38,970 nt of DNA from Deltaproteobacteria bacterium (GTDB lineage Bacteria > Myxococcota > Myxococcia > Myxococcales > JAHFDP01), in the NCBI GenBank assembly GCA_023248955.1, contig JAHFDP010000040.1, positions 1 through 38,970 on the forward strand, read 5' to 3'. A model generated the notes under the pieces. It made no database searches. It worked only from the letters and a program-made list of their open reading frames with translations, and had not been told where the DNA came from. Of the stretch, positions 11,423 to 27,333 are shown in pieces. The position numbers were made by a program, and so were the translations under genes. Within the stretch, counting starts at the first letter, position 1. Every line of letters starts with the position of its first letter.

Positions 11423-11923
11423 ATGCCTCGCAAATCGTCCTCAACTCGCAAATCTCCCGGCGAGACGCCGATGGGTCGCGTCGCCGTTCTTCTCGAGAAG
11501 ATGCGCGCCGACAACCGCGTCACGCGCGAGGCACTCTTCAGCTTTCGCGATGAGCTAAATCGGAAGATCGACAAGAACCACGAAGAGGCAAAGGCAGAGT
11601 TCGCGTTGATCAAAGGCGTGCTCAATTTTCATTCCACGCAAATCGGGGAGCTCAAGCAGGACGTCGCCGAGCTCAAAAAGGACGTCGCCGAGCTCAAGCG
11701 CGATGTGGCGGAGCTGAAAAGCGATGTGGCGGAGCTGAAAAGCGATGTGGCGGAGCTGAAACGCAATGTGGCGGCGCTCAACGCACGGGTCACAGCCATC
11801 GAACATCGGCTCGATCGCATGGAGCCGCAATGGGAAGACGTTCGCGCGGAGCGCGCCGAGCTGGTGGATCTAAAGCGTCGTGTGGCCGCGTTGGAAGCGG
11901 CAGCTTCGCAGTCGCGATCGTAA
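11423..11923 (+). CDS. Small coiled-coil protein with heptad tandem repeats
   Basis: 166 residues, cytoplasmic (no signal peptide or membrane segment). A basic N terminus (PRKSSSTRKSPG) precedes a short helix with VAVLLEKMRADNRV. Residues ~75-125 are tandem seven-residue units of the form D-V-A-E-L-K-x (six copies), then a second helix with VTAIEHRLDRMEPQW and a Leu/Val heptad to the end. This should form a parallel coiled coil or a long antiparallel hairpin. Function is not recognised; the repeat region may vary in length between strains. The 58-bp gap after nadB has no clear promoter. It is convergent with the next gene, whose stop lies 4 bp away. Confidence 0.7.
   Translation: MPRKSSSTRKSPGETPMGRVAVLLEKMRADNRVTREALFSFRDELNRKIDKNHEEAKAEFALIKGVLNFHSTQIGELKQDVAELKKDVAELKRDVAELKSDVAELKSDVAELKRNVAALNARVTAIEHRLDRMEPQWEDVRAERAELVDLKRRVAALEAAASQSRS
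11660..11785 (+). repeat. Six tandem 21-bp units encoding heptads
   Basis: Six consecutive 21-bp units run from 11660 to 11785. Units 4 and 5 are near identical (GATGTGGCGGAGCTGAAAAG), while units 1 and 2 use GAC-GTC-GCC-GAG-CTC codons for the same peptide. The codon choice separates an older pair from a more recently amplified set, as expected for slippage within a coiled-coil gene. Confidence 0.9.
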
Positions 11924-13604: not shown

Positions 13605-14559
13605 CGGCCATCTTGCGCGCCGCCGCTGCTAGCCGCGCCCGCAACTCAGGCCGCGCCGAGAGATCGCGAAGATGCGCCGCCATACCCGCGGCGTCGTGGA
13701 AGAAGAGCGCGTTTTCACCGTGTCGCAGCCAACCGCGGTAGACGCCGATGTCACGCACCACCAGCGGAAGACCCGAGGCCGCGGCTTCCAAGGTCACGAT
13801 GCCCTGGTTTTCCTCGAGGGACGGAAAGGCGAAGGCATCCGCGCCGGCATAAACATCGCGTACATCGTCCACGAATCCGAGAAAGCGGCAATTGCTCGGT
13901 GGACGCCGCACCAACATGCGCAAGCTCGGCGCCAGCGAAATCAGCGGCGACGGAAGCTCTCCGCCCCAAGTGAAGAGCGCCTCCGAAAAACGTCCGGCGG
14001 CTTCGGCGAAGTCGCGCACGCCTTTGCGCTCGAGGAGAAGTCCCACCGCAGCAACCACCAGCTGATCGCTACCCGCAAGCACGCGCGCGCGCTGGAGTCG
14101 CCGCCGCCGCTGGGCCGCTTCGTTCTCGGGCGCAAAAGCAGCCACGTCGACGCCGTTGGAAATCACTTCGATAGGCCGCTGCAAGTTGTAACGGTCGAGG
14201 AGATTGGCGGTGTAGATGCTCGGCGCCACCACCAAGTCCGCGGCTCCGTAGACTCGCCGCAAATGGGGCTTGGCGCCATGGCGCCACACATCGGAAAGCG
14301 TAAAGCTCCCCGCCATGTCCTCGGCGGTCGTGTGCGCGTGGGCAACCACCACGGCACCACGCTCGCGCGCCTGCGCAAAGAGCCGCGGCGCCATCGGCGA
14401 AATTGTATTCGCATGCAATACATCGTACGGCGCCCGCGGATCGTCAACGACAGTGAGCCCAGCCCGCTGCGCGGCCAGCCGCTGGTGGCGCCGAACGGTG
14501 AGCGGCCCGCAGCCTTTGACGAAAGGAAGATCGTCGTAGTGAAAGTGAACGCGGATCAC
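13525..14559 (-). CDS. GT4-family glycosyltransferase (glycolipid type)
   Basis: 344 residues from GTG 14559, which overlaps the preceding stop as GTGA (14556-14559). A longer frame to 14658 lies inside that gene. GT-B fold: the N-terminal half has AHAHTTAEDMAGSF; the C-terminal half has VISNGVDVAAFAPE, VAAVGLLLERKGVRDFAEAA and the donor-site SLEENQGIVTLEAAASGLPLVV. The E-x-NQGIVTLEA sequence resembles 1,2-diacylglycerol 3-glucosyltransferases and related lipid glycosyltransferases more than it does polysaccharide enzymes, so a membrane glycolipid product is plausible. No membrane helix is seen; such enzymes bind the inner leaflet. Donor and acceptor are not determined by sequence. Confidence 0.8.
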   Translation of the reverse strand: MIRVHFHYDDLPFVKGCGPLTVRRHQRLAAQRAGLTVVDDPRAPYDVLHANTISPMAPRLFAQARERGAVVVAHAHTTAEDMAGSFTLSDVWRHGAKPHLRRVYGAADLVVAPSIYTANLLDRYNLQRPIEVISNGVDVAAFAPENEAAQRRRRLQRARVLAGSDQLVVAAVGLLLERKGVRDFAEAAGRFSEALFTWGGELPSPLISLAPSLRMLVRRPPSNCRFLGFVDDVRDVYAGADAFAFPSLEENQGIVTLEAAASGLPLVVRDIGVYRGWLRHGENALFFHDAAGMAAHLRDLSARPELRARLAAAARKMADEHDLYRVGARLAGIYERALQIRKAA

Positions 14560-15473
14560 TGACCCACCTCTAGCGCGCGCCGTGCGGCTGCTACGGGAGC
14601 AGCGGCTGCGGCCTCCGTCTTGTGGCGATGGATTTGCACCGCCGGAACGCCTGCCCACACTTCGCCTTTGCCGATAACCGTCCCCGGTTGCACCAGCGAA
14701 TTGGGTGCCACCGTGGCGAAATCTCCGACGGTGGTGCCGCCCAAAATCACCGCGTGCGTCCCGATGGAAACGCCTCGTCCGATTCGCACCGGCGAGAGCC
14801 GAAATGAACCGCGCGTGGCTTGATGACAGATGATGACCGCGTTGGAGCCGATCACCACGTCATCGCCGAGCGTGAGCAGGGGCAGATCCGAGAAGCCAAC
14901 GGGATTGGCGCAAAAGAGGCGCTTTCCGCAGCGGCCGCCCATCAGGTTGATCCAGAGACCAGCAAGCGGACTCATACGCGGGAGCAGCAGGAGATGCACC
15001 ACGCCCATCACCACACCATACGCGCCATAACGCTGAACCTGCGGCGAGTAGAGCGGCCACTTTCCCTCGACGAGCGCACCGCGAAATGGCCACGCCAGAA
15101 GCGATCCACCGAAGACCGCGAAAAGCGCAAAGAGGAAGTAGGCCGGTGCCACCAGCATTCCGACCAGCAAAAGGCGGGCCACTAGCGGAGCTGAGACAAG
15201 TCCGTCCCAGGTGGAGCAGAGAAGTATCACCGAGGGCGTCGCTGCCGCAGCCATCATCGCCACGGTGACGACAACAAAGCTAGGGAGTCCGACGGCGAAC
15301 CAAAAGAGGTGTAGCCAACGATCGCCCGACGAGGATTTCGCCGACGTTGACGTGGTCGTTGACGCTAACGGCGACGTGAACGTGGCAGTGGGCGACTTGG
15401 CTGGAACATCCACGGCCATGTCGCCGTTCAGGTCGCCGTCCACGCTCACGTCCACGACAACGTCAACGCTCAC
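14556..15473 (-). CDS. Membrane-anchored left-handed beta-helix acyltransferase-like protein
   Basis: 305 residues from GTG 15473, with GAAGGGG six bases upstream and 14 bp after the preceding stop. Residues 1-50 are low complexity: acidic Val/Asp repeats then Ser/Thr (see palindrome 15345-15468). Two to four membrane segments follow (FWFAVGLPSFVVVTVAMM… and AYFLFALFAVFGGSLLAW). The C-terminal ~120 residues carry hexapeptide repeats of the left-handed beta-helix: DDVVIGSNAVI, GVSIGTHAVILGGTTVGDFATVAPNS, VIGKGEVWAGVPA. This fold transfers acetyl or other acyl groups from CoA. The protein ends in AAPVAAARRALEVGQ, related to the repeat in the 21368-24019 gene. It probably acylates a sugar or lipid made by the flanking glycosyltransferases. 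Confidence 0.75.
   Translation of the reverse strand: MSVDVVVDVSVDGDLNGDMAVDVPAKSPTATFTSPLASTTTSTSAKSSSGDRWLHLFWFAVGLPSFVVVTVAMMAAAATPSVILLCSTWDGLVSAPLVARLLLVGMLVAPAYFLFALFAVFGGSLLAWPFRGALVEGKWPLYSPQVQRYGAYGVVMGVVHLLLLPRMSPLAGLWINLMGGRCGKRLFCANPVGFSDLPLLTLGDDVVIGSNAVIICHQATRGSFRLSPVRIGRGVSIGTHAVILGGTTVGDFATVAPNSLVQPGTVIGKGEVWAGVPAVQIHRHKTEAAAAAPVAAARRALEVGQ
14559..14606 (-). repeat. Diverged single copy of the APVAAAR hairpin repeat at a gene end
   Basis: On the minus strand this 48-bp stretch encodes AAPVAAARRALEVGQ right up to the TGA. It aligns with the 57-bp repeats at 21944-22114, with a net loss of three codons. The loop CCCGT is identical, and the stem has changed on both sides (GCTGCT/AGCAGC here, GCGGCT/AGCCGC there), which keeps the pairing. 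Confidence 0.75.
15345..15468. repeat. Imperfect 124-bp palindrome of CGTTGACG/GACGTG units
   Basis: The outer arms 15345-15364 and 15449-15468 match as inverted copies at 18 of 20 positions (CGTTGACGTGGTCGTTGACG on the left). Weaker pairing continues inward to a centre near GGAACATCC at about 15407. The stretch encodes residues ~3-43 of the acyltransferase-like protein: an acidic V-D-V half, then a Ser/Thr/Ala half. It looks like a palindromic repeat that became the N-terminal coding sequence. Confidence 0.65.
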
Positions 15474-15487
15474 GGTCGCCCCTTCGA

Positions 15488-16633
15488 TCAGAGCCAGAGA
15501 TCGTGGAAAAACGCCTGCACCGGCGCCGAACGCCGCTCGTGGTCCGCTTTGGCGCGCGCGCCCATGGCCTTGCGTTCGCCGTCGCCCGCGAGCAACTCCG
15601 AAACCGCTTCGCCGAGCAGATCCGTGCGTCCCGCCGCAACCAGCCGGCCGCAATCGCTGCCGCGAAGTTGCGCCGTTACACCGCGATCATCGTCGAACGC
15701 CACCACGGGAAGCGACGCGCGCTTGGCCTCCTCGACGACCAATCCGTGAGTCTCCGAAAGGCTGGTGAACATGAACAGGTCCGAATAGGAGAGCCACGAG
15801 TGGACTTTCTCGTTCGGAACCATCCCCACGAACTTCACGTTGGGGTTGCCGTTGGCGCGCTTCTCCAGCATTGGCCGTGCAGGCCCGTCGCCCATCATGA
15901 TGAGGTGCGCGTCCTTGTGCTTGGGATAGATGTGCTCGGTGAACGTGTCGACTGCCGCCTCGAGGTTCTTCTCCGGCGACAGACGAGACAGCACCGCGAT
16001 CCGTTTGCCGCGCGGGATGCCAACCAGCGGATCGCCATTGACCCGTCCAGCCGGGAGCGGCCGCGGAGGGATGACAATCACCTTCGCTTGTGACCGATCC
16101 GCGACATAATTGGCACAGCTCTCGTTAGCAACGACCGCGTAGGGAACGTGGCGGAGAAAATGCTCCCAAGCTTTGCCCATCAGCTTGGAGACGCCGCGCG
16201 CCGCGTAATTGGCTACGCGCTTTCCGACGTAGGGCGCCGCGTAATCGTGAATAAACGACTCCGCGTGCCGCAAATAGTCTGGCACAAATGTCGTGAATCG
16301 CCACACAAAACGCTGGCCCAAGAGCCTCGCCTGCGCAAGGCAAGAATAGGCAAAAGACGGCGTAGTTCCATGATAATAAACGAGATCGTAGCCACCAACC
16401 TTGGTCAGGAACGACGGCGGCGGCAAAAAAGCGACGGCGTGGTCTTTGTAGTGCGGAACCGGAAGCGACAGCCAAGTATTGACGGCGGTACCCTTGGTCA
16501 CGCCCGGGAGCTTGGGGACGTAGACCGTAACATCGTGGCCTTGCTCCTGAAGTCGGAGATAATCGGCCATGGCGCTCACGGCTACGCCATCGATGGTGGG
16601 GAACCAGCTATCTGCAAAGAGCGCAATCCGCAT
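15488..16633 (-). CDS. GT4-family glycosyltransferase, first gene of the operon
   Basis: 381 residues; ATG 16633 preceded by GGAGAAAGA. The N terminus MRIALFADSWFPTIDGVAVS is typical of GT4 enzymes related to GDP-mannose-dependent alpha-mannosyltransferases (PimB/MgtA group) and diacylglycerol glucosyltransferases. The C-terminal domain shows IAVLSRLSPEKNLEAAVDTF, MMGDGPARPMLEKRA and the nucleotide-sugar motif SLSETHGLVVEEAKRASLPVVA (split here for length: ESETHG-type turn followed by EEAKRASLPVV). Complete length. It starts the operon 16633-11928 and faces the exporter operon across a 222-bp gap. Likely substrate is a lipid or lipid-linked sugar; the exact one is not known. Confidence 0.8.
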   Translation of the reverse strand: MRIALFADSWFPTIDGVAVSAMADYLRLQEQGHDVTVYVPKLPGVTKGTAVNTWLSLPVPHYKDHAVAFLPPPSFLTKVGGYDLVYYHGTTPSFAYSCLAQARLLGQRFVWRFTTFVPDYLRHAESFIHDYAAPYVGKRVANYAARGVSKLMGKAWEHFLRHVPYAVVANESCANYVADRSQAKVIVIPPRPLPAGRVNGDPLVGIPRGKRIAVLSRLSPEKNLEAAVDTFTEHIYPKHKDAHLIMMGDGPARPMLEKRANGNPNVKFVGMVPNEKVHSWLSYSDLFMFTSLSETHGLVVEEAKRASLPVVAFDDDRGVTAQLRGSDCGRLVAAGRTDLLGEAVSELLAGDGERKAMGARAKADHERRSAPVQAFFHDLWL

Positions 16634-17977: not shown

Positions 17978-18041
17978 CGCCCGCTTTCGTCATGGCCCGC
18001 TCAATCCGCAGTGCCGGCCACTCAAGCGAAAAAACGCTCCT

Positions 18042-18146
18042 TTTCCCCTCCCCCCTTTGCGGGGGAGGGCTAGGGAGGGGGGACCGAGTCCAAGTGCCAA
18101 CGATTCGCACCCCCACCCTGACCCTCCCCCGTCAAGGGGGAGGGGA
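18042..18146. repeat. Paired GC-rich hairpin repeat inside the exporter operon
   Basis: Two hairpins sit 50 bp apart: 18046-18069 (stem CCCTCCCC, short loop TTTGC, GGGGGAGGG) and 18122-18145 (stem CCCTCCCCC, loop GTCAA, GGGGGAGGG). The outer sequences GGGAGGGGGG and CCCCCACCCT also tend to pair. Repeats of this look (CTCCCC…AAGGGGGAGGG) occur in many high-GC Proteobacteria. Here the element separates permease from ATPase in an operon whose other joints overlap. Confidence 0.8.
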
Positions 18147-20124: not shown

Positions 20125-21385
20125 GCACGTCGCGTTTTTTCTTCTCGTTGCAGGCGCGGCAAGCGCGCGCGCCGAAGCACCGATCACGCTCGACGAACTC
20201 CAATCGCTCGCTCGAATCCATTCTCCGAAATTGAAATCCGCGCGCGCCGCAGTCTCCAGCGCCGATGCGGACGTCCGCGCTGCTGGCGCGCTGCGCGGTC
20301 CGCGTGTCGATATTGGTGTGTTCGGACGCGCGGCAACGCCATTTAATGTATCCGTCGCCAATGGAACGGTGCCCTTGCAACTTCCGCTCTCCGGCGGCGC
20401 CAATGCCATGCTTACACAGCCCATCAGCGATCTTTACGCGTTGACGCAAAATCACGCCGCCGCTGAGCACTTGCGGGACGCGACCTCGCTGCGTGCGCAG
20501 GCTGCCGAAAACGATCTCGCCGCAACGGTAGCCGCGCTCTACTTCCGGCACGCCGCCGCGGCCGCGCAGGTCGATCACGCGCGCGCCGAGGTGGCTGCCG
20601 CACAAGCGCGGCGCGATGTTGCTGCGTCACTCGCCACACAAGGCCAGGGCGACATGGCCGCTGTGCTCGATGCCAAGTTGGCCGTCGCCACCTCCGAAGC
20701 ACAGACGGCAACTGCCGAAGCTGCGCTAGACGACGGGCGCGCGGAGATCGAAGCGCTGATCGGAATTTCGTTTCCCGCTGGACGCGCACTCTCAACCACG
20801 CTCGAAAAACCGCAACTTCTCAGCGTTCCCGAAAAGGCGGAAGAGACCGCAGCCCAAGCGCGTTTCGACGTGCAAGCGGCCGAAGCCGATGCCGCCGCGG
20901 CCGAGCGACGTTGCAGCGCGGCCGCACAAGATCTCTATCCTCAGTTGGCGATCTCGGCGGAAGCGGGTCCCGTTGTCGATGCGATTCATCCACCGCTCTG
21001 GGCCGCCGCCACCGCCAACGTTCGCTGGACCGCGCTCGATTGGGGACTGTCACGCGCGCGTGAGGATGCCGCTTGTGCGCGCGCGGCGCAGGCTCGGCAA
21101 GCCGCGCTGGACACCGCTAGCGAAGCACGAACCGCCGTCCGCCAAGCGATGCGTGCCGACCAAACCGCGCAGCGTCGCGTCGATGCGCAAGAGCGCGCGT
21201 TGGCATTGGCAACGGAGCTTTCACGCGTGGTTGCCGACAAAGCGGCGCGCGGCTCAGCAACGAAAGCGGAAGCGTTGACCGCGCAGGCGCGCGTCGCCGA
21301 CGCCAACGCGCAACTGGCCGCGGCGACGGCCGAGTGGTTAACGGCGCGCGTGCGAATCGAGCTTGCGCTAGCTCGGCAACGGTGA
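20105..21385 (+). CDS. TolC-family outer-membrane efflux channel
   Basis: 426 residues, with ATG 20105 preceded by GGAG and a signal peptide to about residue 24 (AASARAEAP). Two similar halves show the family layout: ITLDELQSLARIHSPKLKSARAA near the N terminus, long Ala-rich helices, a central strand pair (LYPQLAISAEAGPVVD), and a second helical half ending AEWLTARVRIELALARQR. The length is slightly short of E. coli TolC mature (471) but normal for the family. It should trimerise into the outer-membrane exit duct for the DevCAB-like pump. The last 18 bp overlap the convergent gene 21368-24019. Confidence 0.88.
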   Translation: MLSSSRKHVAFFLLVAGAASARAEAPITLDELQSLARIHSPKLKSARAAVSSADADVRAAGALRGPRVDIGVFGRAATPFNVSVANGTVPLQLPLSGGANAMLTQPISDLYALTQNHAAAEHLRDATSLRAQAAENDLAATVAALYFRHAAAAAQVDHARAEVAAAQARRDVAASLATQGQGDMAAVLDAKLAVATSEAQTATAEAALDDGRAEIEALIGISFPAGRALSTTLEKPQLLSVPEKAEETAAQARFDVQAAEADAAAAERRCSAAAQDLYPQLAISAEAGPVVDAIHPPLWAAATANVRWTALDWGLSRAREDAACARAAQARQAALDTASEARTAVRQAMRADQTAQRRVDAQERALALATELSRVVADKAARGSATKAEALTAQARVADANAQLAAATAEWLTARVRIELALARQR

Positions 21386-24019
21386 GCTGTCCGCGTTTGC
21401 GCGCGCCACCACCCACCACGCCCCTGCCGCAACCACCAGCGCCAAGAGCGCGTGCGGCAAATCACCCAGCGCGTGAAGTGATGTCCAAAACGATCCGCGG
21501 CAAATGAGCAGATGCGCCGTGAGCACTGCGGCGCGCGCGGCCTCGGCGATGACGAGCCCACGTGCCACCGACACGCGGCTGGTTTTCCGAAGCGGCGTAA
21601 GCACCGCGAAAACCAACCCGGTCACGGCGAGCGCGTGCTTGAAGCAAACCGCGGAAACCAACCGCCACATCGGCGCACCGGCTTCGCGAAACGAACCGGC
21701 GCCAAAATCGAGACTGGTGAATTCGACGCCGAGCTGCACGCCGATCCGCTGAATAAAAATCCAGGCGAAAAGAAACGTCACCAGCGCCAGCACCGCCGCG
21801 GGATGAAGGGGCTTCTGCGCATCCCGATCCTGTTGGGCAAACGTTTCGCCGACCAGCGACGCCACGACGTAAGTGAGCAGCAGGGCCGGAATTTCTGCAT
21901 CGCGCGAAACCCAGGAGTAGGAGGCAAGCGCGAGAAGCTCGGACTGGCTTACCTTTACGCGCGTCAGCGCGAGCCGTGCCGCGGCTACGGGAGCCGCGGC
22001 CTGGCTTACCTTTACGCGCGTCAGCGCGAGCCGTGCCGCGGCTACGGGAGCCGCGGCCTGGCCCACCTTTACGCGCATCAGCGCGAGCCGTGCCGCGGCT
22101 ACGGGAGCCGCGGTCTTCAACCAGGAACCACGACGCCAAACCAGTGGCACAGCGATGGCGCAACCGAGCCAACCGGTGATGCAGACCGCAGCCGGCGCGA
22201 AACGCCGCAGCACGAGCGAGGCGACCGCGAGCGCGGTCATCGAAACGACGGCTAGCGCCGAAACTTGATATTTTGTTGTCTTGACAAAAAATCTAGTCGC
22301 TGAAAACAGCACCATCGAAGCAACCGCGAGTCCGAGAAGCAAATCCGGACGGGCCATCAGGGAATCGGGGAGATAAGCGTCACGAACAAACGCGAGCGGC
22401 GAAACAAAAAAAAGCAGCCCCAGGGTCGCCACGGCACGCTTCGGAACCTGCCACCGGATCTTCGCGGGCGTGGAGGAAAAATCGGTGATCATCGGAACAA
22501 TCGCGATCAGCGCAGCCAAACCAAAAGCCTCGCCGCGCAGCGACCATGTGGACGTGGCCACCAGCAGGCCCGGCAAGAGCAGCGCACCTAACCACGGCTC
22601 GCGCGCCAGCCACGCCAACGCGCGCCGCGACTGCGTCAGAGCACCAATCAGTGCGCCGTTGAGCGACACGGCAAGCGCGGCGACACCGACCGCCTGCCAT
22701 GCGCCCGGCGGAAAATCCAGAGCGAAAATGATCGCGGTGCCGAGCGCGGCTAGCACGATTCCAATCGCGGTAGCGCGCGCCACGGCGAAGCTCATCGGTC
22801 GAACCGTCAGCCAAACGATCACCAACGCTCCGAGCACCGCGAACAAGAGAACCAGCGACCCGCGAAGCACACCGGATGGACGCGCCTCTCCGATCGCCCG
22901 ATCGAGTAGCTGTGCCGCACTGCGCGCGGCCTGCACACGCTGGCGCGGCTCGTTCGTCAGGCATGCTTGTTCAGCGCCGGAGGCAAGGACGACCCGCTCG
23001 GAGGCCACCTGGCGCGCGTAAACAAAGAGCCGCGCCAAATCCGCGCAGGCCAGCTGGGCACGTGCAGTGTCCGTCACGTCGAGCCACTCGGCCAGCAGAT
23101 GGCCGCGGCTCGTCGCGGGAGGCGAGACGCCGAGCAAGACCGCGAACATCGTGGCGAGATCGATCTGATCCAGCGGGCGCTGCTCGGCGCGACCGTGCAC
23201 GATGCCGGGGCCGTAAGCGTAGAGCGGAGAACGGCGCTGTTCCGGTGTGTCCCAGCCGTGCTGACCGTCGGCGCGCGCGCCGTGATCGCTGGTGACGAAG
23301 ACAGTCCAATCGGGCGGCAGATCGGTGAGGAGCGCGGCCAAATCGCGATCGAACGTTCGCAAAAATTCGCGGTACTCCGGTGAGGCCGTGCCAGTGCGAT
23401 GGCCCTGGTGATCGGGCATGACAAAATGAGCAACCAGAAACGCGGGCGTACGAGACGCCATCTCGCGCGCCGCCGCAAAAATCTCCGCGTCGTAGTCGAC
23501 GTCGATGCCCACGGAGGGATCGGGATGCGCCTCTGTCCACCCATCGGGGTACAGATGAAACCACGGGTGCGCACCGGTAACGGCGGTGGTGAGACCCGCC
23601 GCGCGCACGCTGGCCGGAACGTTGGCGAAGAGCACCGGACTTCCGCGCTCGTCATTGGCGACTTGATCGAGCTCACCGCGTTGACCCGTCCCGTACGCCA
23701 GAACCGCCGAGGCCGTAACGGAGATCGGACTCGACCAGATCTCGCCGTGCGACTCCCGCTGCATCCGCTGCGCGAAGGCGGGCATCACCGTTGCGTCGGT
23801 GGCCAAGTCGTAGCGAAGTCCGTCCACAACGATGAGCGCGAGGTGGTGCGTCAGCGCGGGGCCAAGCGGCGCGACGGAGGGAAGGCTGGGCGGCGGCGGC
23901 GGTGGAAGCGCGATGTCCATTAGCAATGCGGCGAGCACGCCCGCAAAGGCGATTGAGAAGAAAAAGACAACAGCTGGCCGACTGACTATCCTCAAATGTT
24001 TACCCTTCGTGCTGCCCAT
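21368..24019 (-). CDS. Alkaline-phosphatase-superfamily membrane protein, GPI ethanolamine-phosphate-transferase-like layout
   Basis: 883 residues. Helix 1 at ~14-36 is followed by a Pro run and a periplasmic catalytic domain. Its metal-site motifs are VVDGLRYD (Asp66), the nucleophile region SPISVTASAV (Thr102 or a nearby Ser), MPDHQGH (Asp203/His207) and TSDHGARADGQHGW (Asp245/His246/His254). From ~residue 395 to the end there are about 12 hydrophobic segments. A catalytic phosphatase-fold domain followed by a large polytopic domain is the layout of eukaryotic PIG-N/O/G proteins; bacterial EptA-type enzymes have the reverse order. It may transfer phosphoethanolamine or a similar group onto a glycolipid. 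Residues 636-692 are a three-copy 19-residue repeat between two membrane parts. Start: ATG 24019, 29 bp from the divergent rapA-like gene. Confidence 0.7.
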   Translation of the reverse strand: MGSTKGKHLRIVSRPAVVFFFSIAFAGVLAALLMDIALPPPPPPSLPSVAPLGPALTHHLALIVVDGLRYDLATDATVMPAFAQRMQRESHGEIWSSPISVTASAVLAYGTGQRGELDQVANDERGSPVLFANVPASVRAAGLTTAVTGAHPWFHLYPDGWTEAHPDPSVGIDVDYDAEIFAAAREMASRTPAFLVAHFVMPDHQGHRTGTASPEYREFLRTFDRDLAALLTDLPPDWTVFVTSDHGARADGQHGWDTPEQRRSPLYAYGPGIVHGRAEQRPLDQIDLATMFAVLLGVSPPATSRGHLLAEWLDVTDTARAQLACADLARLFVYARQVASERVVLASGAEQACLTNEPRQRVQAARSAAQLLDRAIGEARPSGVLRGSLVLLFAVLGALVIVWLTVRPMSFAVARATAIGIVLAALGTAIIFALDFPPGAWQAVGVAALAVSLNGALIGALTQSRRALAWLAREPWLGALLLPGLLVATSTWSLRGEAFGLAALIAIVPMITDFSSTPAKIRWQVPKRAVATLGLLFFVSPLAFVRDAYLPDSLMARPDLLLGLAVASMVLFSATRFFVKTTKYQVSALAVVSMTALAVASLVLRRFAPAAVCITGWLGCAIAVPLVWRRGSWLKTAAPVAAARLALMRVKVGQAAAPVAAARLALTRVKVSQAAAPVAAARLALTRVKVSQSELLALASYSWVSRDAEIPALLLTYVVASLVGETFAQQDRDAQKPLHPAAVLALVTFLFAWIFIQRIGVQLGVEFTSLDFGAGSFREAGAPMWRLVSAVCFKHALAVTGLVFAVLTPLRKTSRVSVARGLVIAEAARAAVLTAHLLICRGSFWTSLHALGDLPHALLALVVAAGAWWVVARANADSSPLPS
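21944..22114 (-). repeat. Three 57-bp in-frame tandem repeats with a hairpin core
   Basis: Copies at 21944-22000, 22001-22057 and 22058-22114 encode AAAPVAAARLALTRVKVSQ (or close variants) three times. Copies 1 and 2 are identical and copy 3 differs at a few positions. Each unit holds a perfect stem: GCCGCGGCT, loop CCCGT, AGCCGCGGC (one end base changed in copy 3). A diverged relative is at 14559-14606. Confidence 0.95.
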
Positions 24020-27112: not shown

Positions 27113-27266
27113 CGGGTAAAAAGCTCAAAGGAGGATGGGAGGAGAGGAGGATGGAAGGTTTTGATTTGCAATGGCGCCCTGATTCACGCTCCGCCAACAA
27201 CCCACAAAACCAACGCCAAACCTCACCTCCCTTCCCTCCTCACGTCCTCCCTGTGAGCTTTTACTC
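27113..27266. repeat. Palindromic element 2: purine-rich inverted repeat
   Basis: The left arm begins GGTAAAAAGCTCAAAGGAGG and runs on as a purine tract; the right arm, read on the other strand, begins GAGTAAAAGCTCACAGGGAG and also runs on as a purine tract. The arms therefore pair over about 45 bp with a few mismatches, around a loop of about 65 bp. The arm core CTCACAGGGAGGA is shared with element 1 (126-330), but the loop sequence is different. It occupies the gap between the convergent rapA-like gene (stop 27039) and transglycosylase gene (stop 27334); the rest of this 294-bp gap shows nothing else. Confidence 0.75.
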
Positions 27267-27333
27267 GTTCTCGTAAGTCACAAATCGATCGTTCCGAGCC
27301 TGTTCCCGAAACCCACTCGTTCGCCGGCACGAG

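Follow-up and report, generated by a model that had tools for sequence, protein, structure and literature searches.

Palindromic elements that lie within protein-coding genes are best documented in Rickettsia and Wolbachia, and the way in which they move has been an open question since 2000. These elements—the RPEs and the Wolbachia palindromic elements—are small, dispersed palindromic DNAs that occur in frame in protein genes as well as in intergenic regions, with no known transposase (PMC2229807, PMC10969869, PMC4224334). REP and REPIN sequences, which occur with RAYT, are short, hairpin-forming, and lineage-specific, sometimes stand in tandem clusters, and are inferred to move as single-stranded DNA (PMC3116915). 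ERIC, Correia/NEMIS, YPAL, and similar MITEs are non-autonomous, shorter than 200 bp, and sometimes fused in frame to genes (PMC2229807).

The repeat described here, a 57-bp unit (hereafter the 57-mer), comes from a 38,970-nucleotide stretch of myxococcotal DNA (the window), which is contig C86 of a draft genome of 3.83 Mb in 116 contigs, 95.6% complete. Judged by the features that define those groups, the 57-mer is not an RPE, a REPIN, or a MITE. The original prediction had compared it in principle to the RPEs of Rickettsia, and in one respect the parallel is apt: like those elements and their Wolbachia counterparts, the 57-mer extends proteins in frame and also lies between genes. RPEs, however, are stem-loops of 105-146 bp with terminal inverted repeats from Rickettsiales, whereas the 57-mer measures 57 bp, consists of two separate hairpin domains with no terminal inverted repeat, and belongs to the Myxococcota; membership in the RPE family is thus not supported, on the grounds of size, architecture, and taxon. 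With REPINs it shares short length, hairpin formation, restriction to a lineage, and, at some sites, tandem arrangement. REPINs are instead inverted pairs of one REP, extragenic, and accompanied by a RAYT gene in the genome, while the 57-mer combines two unlike hairpins, lies in coding sequence at 9 of 16 sites, and has no Y1_Tnp match in its genome at E<=0.001. Hairpins close to both ends, the lack of a target-site duplication, and a scarless empty site recall IS200/IS605 elements, but the fixed 4-5 nt target found directly 5' of those is absent at the 16 sites of the 57-mer. In most MITEs, terminal inverted repeats are accompanied by target-site duplications; the 57-mer has neither at the sites examined. 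Finally, the SDRs of Nostoc and other cyanobacteria, described by Elhai et al. in 2008, are reportedly about 21-27 bp long, precisely inserted, and mobile by inference, with the enzyme unknown. The 57-mer is likewise very small and precisely inserted, and is set apart by the size of its 57-bp unit, the comparison being with the description of the SDRs only.

Compared with the palindromic elements of Rickettsia and Wolbachia, the 57-mer is a smaller element in an unrelated lineage, and its natural empty sites, exact boundaries, occurrence in both orientations, and covarying structure put tests of the intermediate, the enzyme, and the target within reach. The element further illustrates one way in which bacterial proteins can be extended by exactly 19 residues, be it within loops, in signal peptides, or at their ends.

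Copies in the window and in the genome

Three tandem in-frame units had been read from the letters of a gene for a phosphatase-like membrane protein (Table 1), and both the ORF translation and TRF (57-bp period, 3.1 copies, 21940-22113, 96% matches) confirm an array of exactly three at 21944-22114, on the minus strand. The array encodes residues 636-692 of the protein, that is, 57 extra residues opening with TAAPVAAARLALMRVKVGQ and continuing with two near copies, and a phosphatase paralogue in the same genome (C32:7-1818) lacks exactly these 57. The stem proposed around a CCCGT loop (GCCGCGGCT/AGCCGCGGC) is present in all three units, with A rather than G as the outermost base of the first. 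The diverged relative proposed at the end of an acyltransferase-like gene is also real: it is a degenerate copy of 48 nt in the same frame, encodes the last 16 residues of the protein (AAAPVAAARRALEVGQ), and is directly followed by TGA. A 9-nt internal deletion takes out most of its second hairpin and leaves the first in place. Its loop is identical to that of the array, and one stem pair, 6-18, has changed from G-C to T-A on both sides, but the copy also has one C.C mismatch besides the deletion.

The core motif, allowing up to two mismatches, occurs 5 times in the window versus 0.30 expected (0 of 100 shuffles). Across the draft genome, BLAST with the 57-bp unit found 19 places at E<1e-3, and a covariance model found 26 at E<0.01; of these, 25 reached E<=2e-6, and the remaining one, the weakest at 0.0077, is the degenerate copy of the window. 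The element is thus dispersed, as had been predicted: 22 of the 26 copies lie elsewhere in the genome, and the total corresponds to about 16 independent sites, in both orientations and both inside and between genes, when each tandem array is counted as one and all copies within MITEs together as one. Identical 57-nt boundaries are found in all full copies (consensus GCCGCGGCTCCCGTAGCCGCGGCACGGCTCGCGCTGNNGCGCGTAAAGGAAGGCCAG), and many of the non-coding copies sit within one MITE family.

The search for the element among related Myxococcota, which the original prediction had proposed, covered 144 further genomes of the order, all from other families. In these the covariance model returned nothing at E<=1e-4, and we judged the weaker matches in these relatives (E 0.004-0.1) to be due to chance. 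Pattern scans of GTDB and viral sequences returned 14 and 6 stretches, respectively, with a best full-model score of 34 bits against 75-84 bits for most full-length copies in the own genome, and as the scanned stretches had been preselected by the core motif, these too were judged chance. BLAST against plasmid and phage collections gave no match, and a scan of six loci against Rfam 15 gave no family at E<=1. We consider it highly probable that the 57-mer is a small, lineage-specific, non-autonomous mobile element present at unrelated sites.

Table 1. Copies of the 57-mer and their host genes in the window, and the nine coding sites in the genome (CM R1, covariance model)
Feature	Position in window	Strand	Units and orientation in gene	Evidence
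Host gene, hexapeptide-repeat acyltransferase ORF (true start uncertain)	14556..15653	-		PF00132 E=6.4e-8
Degenerate 48-nt copy, 9-nt internal deletion	14559..14606	-		CM R1 E=0.0077 genome-wide; sequence
Degenerate copy, hairpin 1	14584-14606	-		
Host gene, 883-aa alkaline-phosphatase-superfamily (Phosphodiest) membrane protein	21368..24019	-		PF01663 E=2.1e-17
Unit 1 (first in the reading direction of the gene)	22058..22114	-		CM R1 E=6.6e-13; TRF
Unit 1, hairpin 1	22092-22114	-		
Unit 1, hairpin 2 and closing helix	22060-22089	-		
Unit 2	22001..22057	-		CM R1 E=5.8e-14
Unit 2, hairpin 1	22035-22057	-		
Unit 2, hairpin 2 and closing helix	22003-22032	-		
Unit 3 (sequence identical to unit 2)	21944..22000	-		CM R1 E=5.8e-14
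Unit 3, hairpin 1	21978-22000	-		
Unit 3, hairpin 2 and closing helix	21946-21975	-		
Coding site, phosphatase			3 units, sense	
Coding site, acyltransferase C-terminus			sense	
Coding site, 1251-aa oxidoreductase			sense	
Coding site, BatA-type protein			sense	
Coding site, LolD-like ABC ATPase C-terminus			3 units, sense; stop TAG supplied by last unit	
Coding site, signal peptide of outer-membrane-like protein			sense, another frame	
Coding site, YggS/PLPBP			antisense	
Coding site, type II pseudopilin leader			one full and one 42-nt unit, antisense	
Coding site, 521-aa exported-looking protein, directly after ATG			antisense	

Two hairpins and nine coding sites

Without prompting, RNAalifold folded the unit into a stem at 1-9/15-23, a second stem at 30-34/39-43, and a helix at 26-29/52-55 that closes the second hairpin. 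The unit is therefore more than the single palindrome first described, which corresponds to hairpin 1; hairpin 2 and its closing helix had been missed. Together the helices cover positions 1-23 and 26-55 of the 57, and the ends of the unit do not pair with one another. Six of the 18 pairs are changed on both sides, and the covariation score (0.230, compared with 0.110 for shuffled alignments; 0 of 500) is lost when partners are slid. Subfamilies of the element differ by matched changes in the first stem (GCCGCGGCT/AGCCGCGGC, GCCGTGGCC/GGCCACGGC, GCCGGGTCC/GGACCCGGC), and a matched change also distinguishes them in the closing helix (GGCT/GGCC vs GCCC/GGGC). As DNA, both strands fold better than shuffles (z = -3.3 to -3.9), and the RNA fold reaches -32.9 kcal/mol (z -2.9). 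Because the subfamily changes keep pairing, we infer that the form recognised is a folded single strand, either DNA or RNA.

All nine coding insertions among the 16 independent sites are in frame, in agreement with the proposal that the element spreads through coding sequence without frame breakage. The further impression of one strand and one frame is correct for the two window genes but does not extend to the genome: the unit is read in the sense direction in six of the nine cases, five of which share one frame and nearly the same peptide (AAPVAAARLAL), while the insertion at C70 uses another sense frame and those at C45, C110, and C14 are antisense. Reading frames survive insertion because 57 is 3x19, or 19 codons, and because five of the six frames are usually open; these five are open in most copies, and the sixth, closed in every copy, is never used.

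In alignments of the host genes, the gap opposite the insert is mostly an exact multiple of 19 residues, and the added residues are not a constant part of these proteins. The YggS insert is missing from 19 of 19 orthologues in the order (in 13 the gap is exactly 19 aa long, in the rest 20-22 aa), and a 19-aa gap likewise falls at the insert when YggS is compared with the solved PipY. For the oxidoreductase, the gap is exactly 19 aa in 11 of 13 orthologues, and for BatA it is of about equal length among 14 relatives; the phosphatase paralogue, as noted above, differs by exactly 57. Judging from the sequence, the genes at C70, C14, and C110 would encode a normal signal peptide or prepilin leader if read without the unit. 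Insertions in genes may persist where they fall in loops, signal peptides, or protein ends, such that the protein would be lengthened and not destroyed.

Insertion mode and candidate enzymes

Wherever comparable empty sites are available, the insertion amounts to exactly one unit or to tandem units, with no target-site duplication. The flanks of the 16 sites gave no sign of a target preference, as no column rose above the null (maximum relative entropy 0.40; null median 0.40, 95% 0.66). Each of the arrays at C86, C92, and C110 has shared substitutions found nowhere else; they therefore expanded in place, by whole units at a time. The first tandem step looks unlike random slippage on a single copy and may instead reflect insertion at the boundary of the unit itself or an intermediate that is multimeric.

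The most likely mode of movement, in our view, is a single-strand transposition in which the hairpins are recognised by an enzyme that may belong to the host, have been lost, or lie in an unassembled part of the genome—at 95.6% completeness, its gene could be missing—with RNA-mediated insertion second. An enzyme acting in trans would recognise the folded single strand, whether DNA or RNA, and tandem arrays would then extend locally by exact unit steps. A narrower form of this reading names the enzyme and regards the 57-mer as derived from, or a remnant of, an IS200/IS605 or REP/RAYT (HUH-Y1) system. Among enzymes, a Y1 transposase would come to mind first, given hairpins at or near both ends, no target-site duplication, scarless filled and empty pairs, and tandem clusters of the kind described for REPINs (PMC3116915). 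We nevertheless hold such an origin to be possible but rather unlikely: Y1_Tnp (PF01797) has 0 matches at E<=0.001 in the own genome (95.6% complete), compared with 5 of 14 control genomes positive, the insertions have no conserved 5' tetranucleotide such as IS200/IS605 elements need, and REPs are extragenic whereas the 57-mer is often intragenic.

The second mode, movement by way of an RNA copy, would have a folded transcript reverse transcribed, for example by a group II intron-type RT such as that of C11, and inserted in a SINE-like manner. The strong RNA fold is consistent with this, as are a frequent U.G pair at 29-52, which pairs only on this strand, and the one intact RT ORF of the genome, which is also its single match to RVT_1 (G000:C11:21064-21681; L112). 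Yet insertions have neither a target duplication nor a tail, the covariance model has no match at the C11 RT locus, and A.C mispairs, which would pair on the other strand, are present as well, so that we regard an RNA route as improbable. The C11 ORF itself was rejected as a linked enzyme, having no link to the element.

A fixed site within a MITE family

The MITE family that holds many of the non-coding copies is about 260 bp long, has terminal inverted repeats of its own, and occupies at least 31 loci (L169-L198 and L077; for example, L086:1620-1873). It comprises two subfamilies, with terminal inverted repeats TAGGGCSTGTCCTCAAATTC and AGCCGGAAAACCACAATTGCCG, and some copies of subfamily A have CTAG at each end. 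The 57-mer lies at one fixed position of these MITEs; 6 copies carry it there and 25 do not. The filled copy at C49 and the empty copy at C105 are 97% identical over 197 bp, and at the junction (CGCCCG[57]CATTCGG vs CGCCCGCATTCGG) they differ by exactly 57 bp, with no duplication and no scar. On the MITE tree, the six filled copies are scattered, implying 6 changes (5-6 in the bootstrap), but branch support is low; well-supported branches force only 2 of these changes, and the mis-trimmed C114 gives a long branch. The 57-mers of filled MITEs are less diverged than the MITEs that carry them in 10 of 10 pairwise comparisons (P 2e-5 to 0.028, the pairs not being independent), as would be expected if the unit had moved recently, been converted, or been under constraint. 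The history of this site may be one of repeated gain, of repeated loss, or of transfer by conversion.

Conversion raises a broader alternative, namely that the 57-mer was inserted once or a few times only and owes its later spread to homologous recombination and gene conversion among repeat copies. The identical position occupied in the six MITE copies, where conversion could insert or delete the unit, accords with this, as do the locus-specific substitutions common to the units of tandem arrays. As an account of the whole distribution it is very unlikely, however, for the fifteen other sites have no flanking similarity in common, and the flanks within 3-4 bp of the junction in filled MITEs retain the alleles found in the corresponding empty sister. 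Least credible of all, and in practice dismissed, are the views that the copies are GC-rich repeats arisen by chance or that selection on the protein maintains a functional Ala/Pro-rich peptide repeat: the predominance of sense insertions in one frame with nearly one peptide would suit the latter, but the same DNA also occurs antisense and outside genes, compensatory changes keep its pairing, and covariance-model E-values go down to 6e-14.

The main unexplained point is the repeated occupancy of one MITE site alongside no target preference elsewhere, a combination that no simple insertion model fits. We tentatively raise, as something short of an even prospect, that the 57-mer with its two hairpins represents miniature mobile elements of a new class, marked by insertion with no target preference or duplication, scarless loss, exact tandem multiplication (suggesting a circular or multimeric intermediate), an enzyme other than Y1 HUH, and repeated appearance and disappearance at one site in an unrelated MITE.

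Several other repeats were noted in passing. Subfamily B MITEs (L187, L188, L190, L192, and others) have an optional hairpin-rich block of about 64 bp (TTGCTCGCCGCAAGCGG...CTCCCCCGGTACCGGGGGAG); some copies carry it and others do not, at one and the same exact position, much like the 57-mer. In the window itself, 21-bp tandem repeats at 11647-11781 encode heptads (for example, SDVAELK) in a 166-aa ORF and probably form a coiled coil. A 58-nt inverted repeat pair lies near the contig start (124-331), and one of its arms has a 72% relative at a distance of 27 kb (27212-27272); the dispersed repeat at 18041-18144 has relatives at L078:6560-6655 and L081:2071-2157. At the contig end (36377-38970), ORFs that we take to resemble IstA and IstB of an IS21-type element are flanked on both sides by repeated motifs (AAGCCGATCACC).
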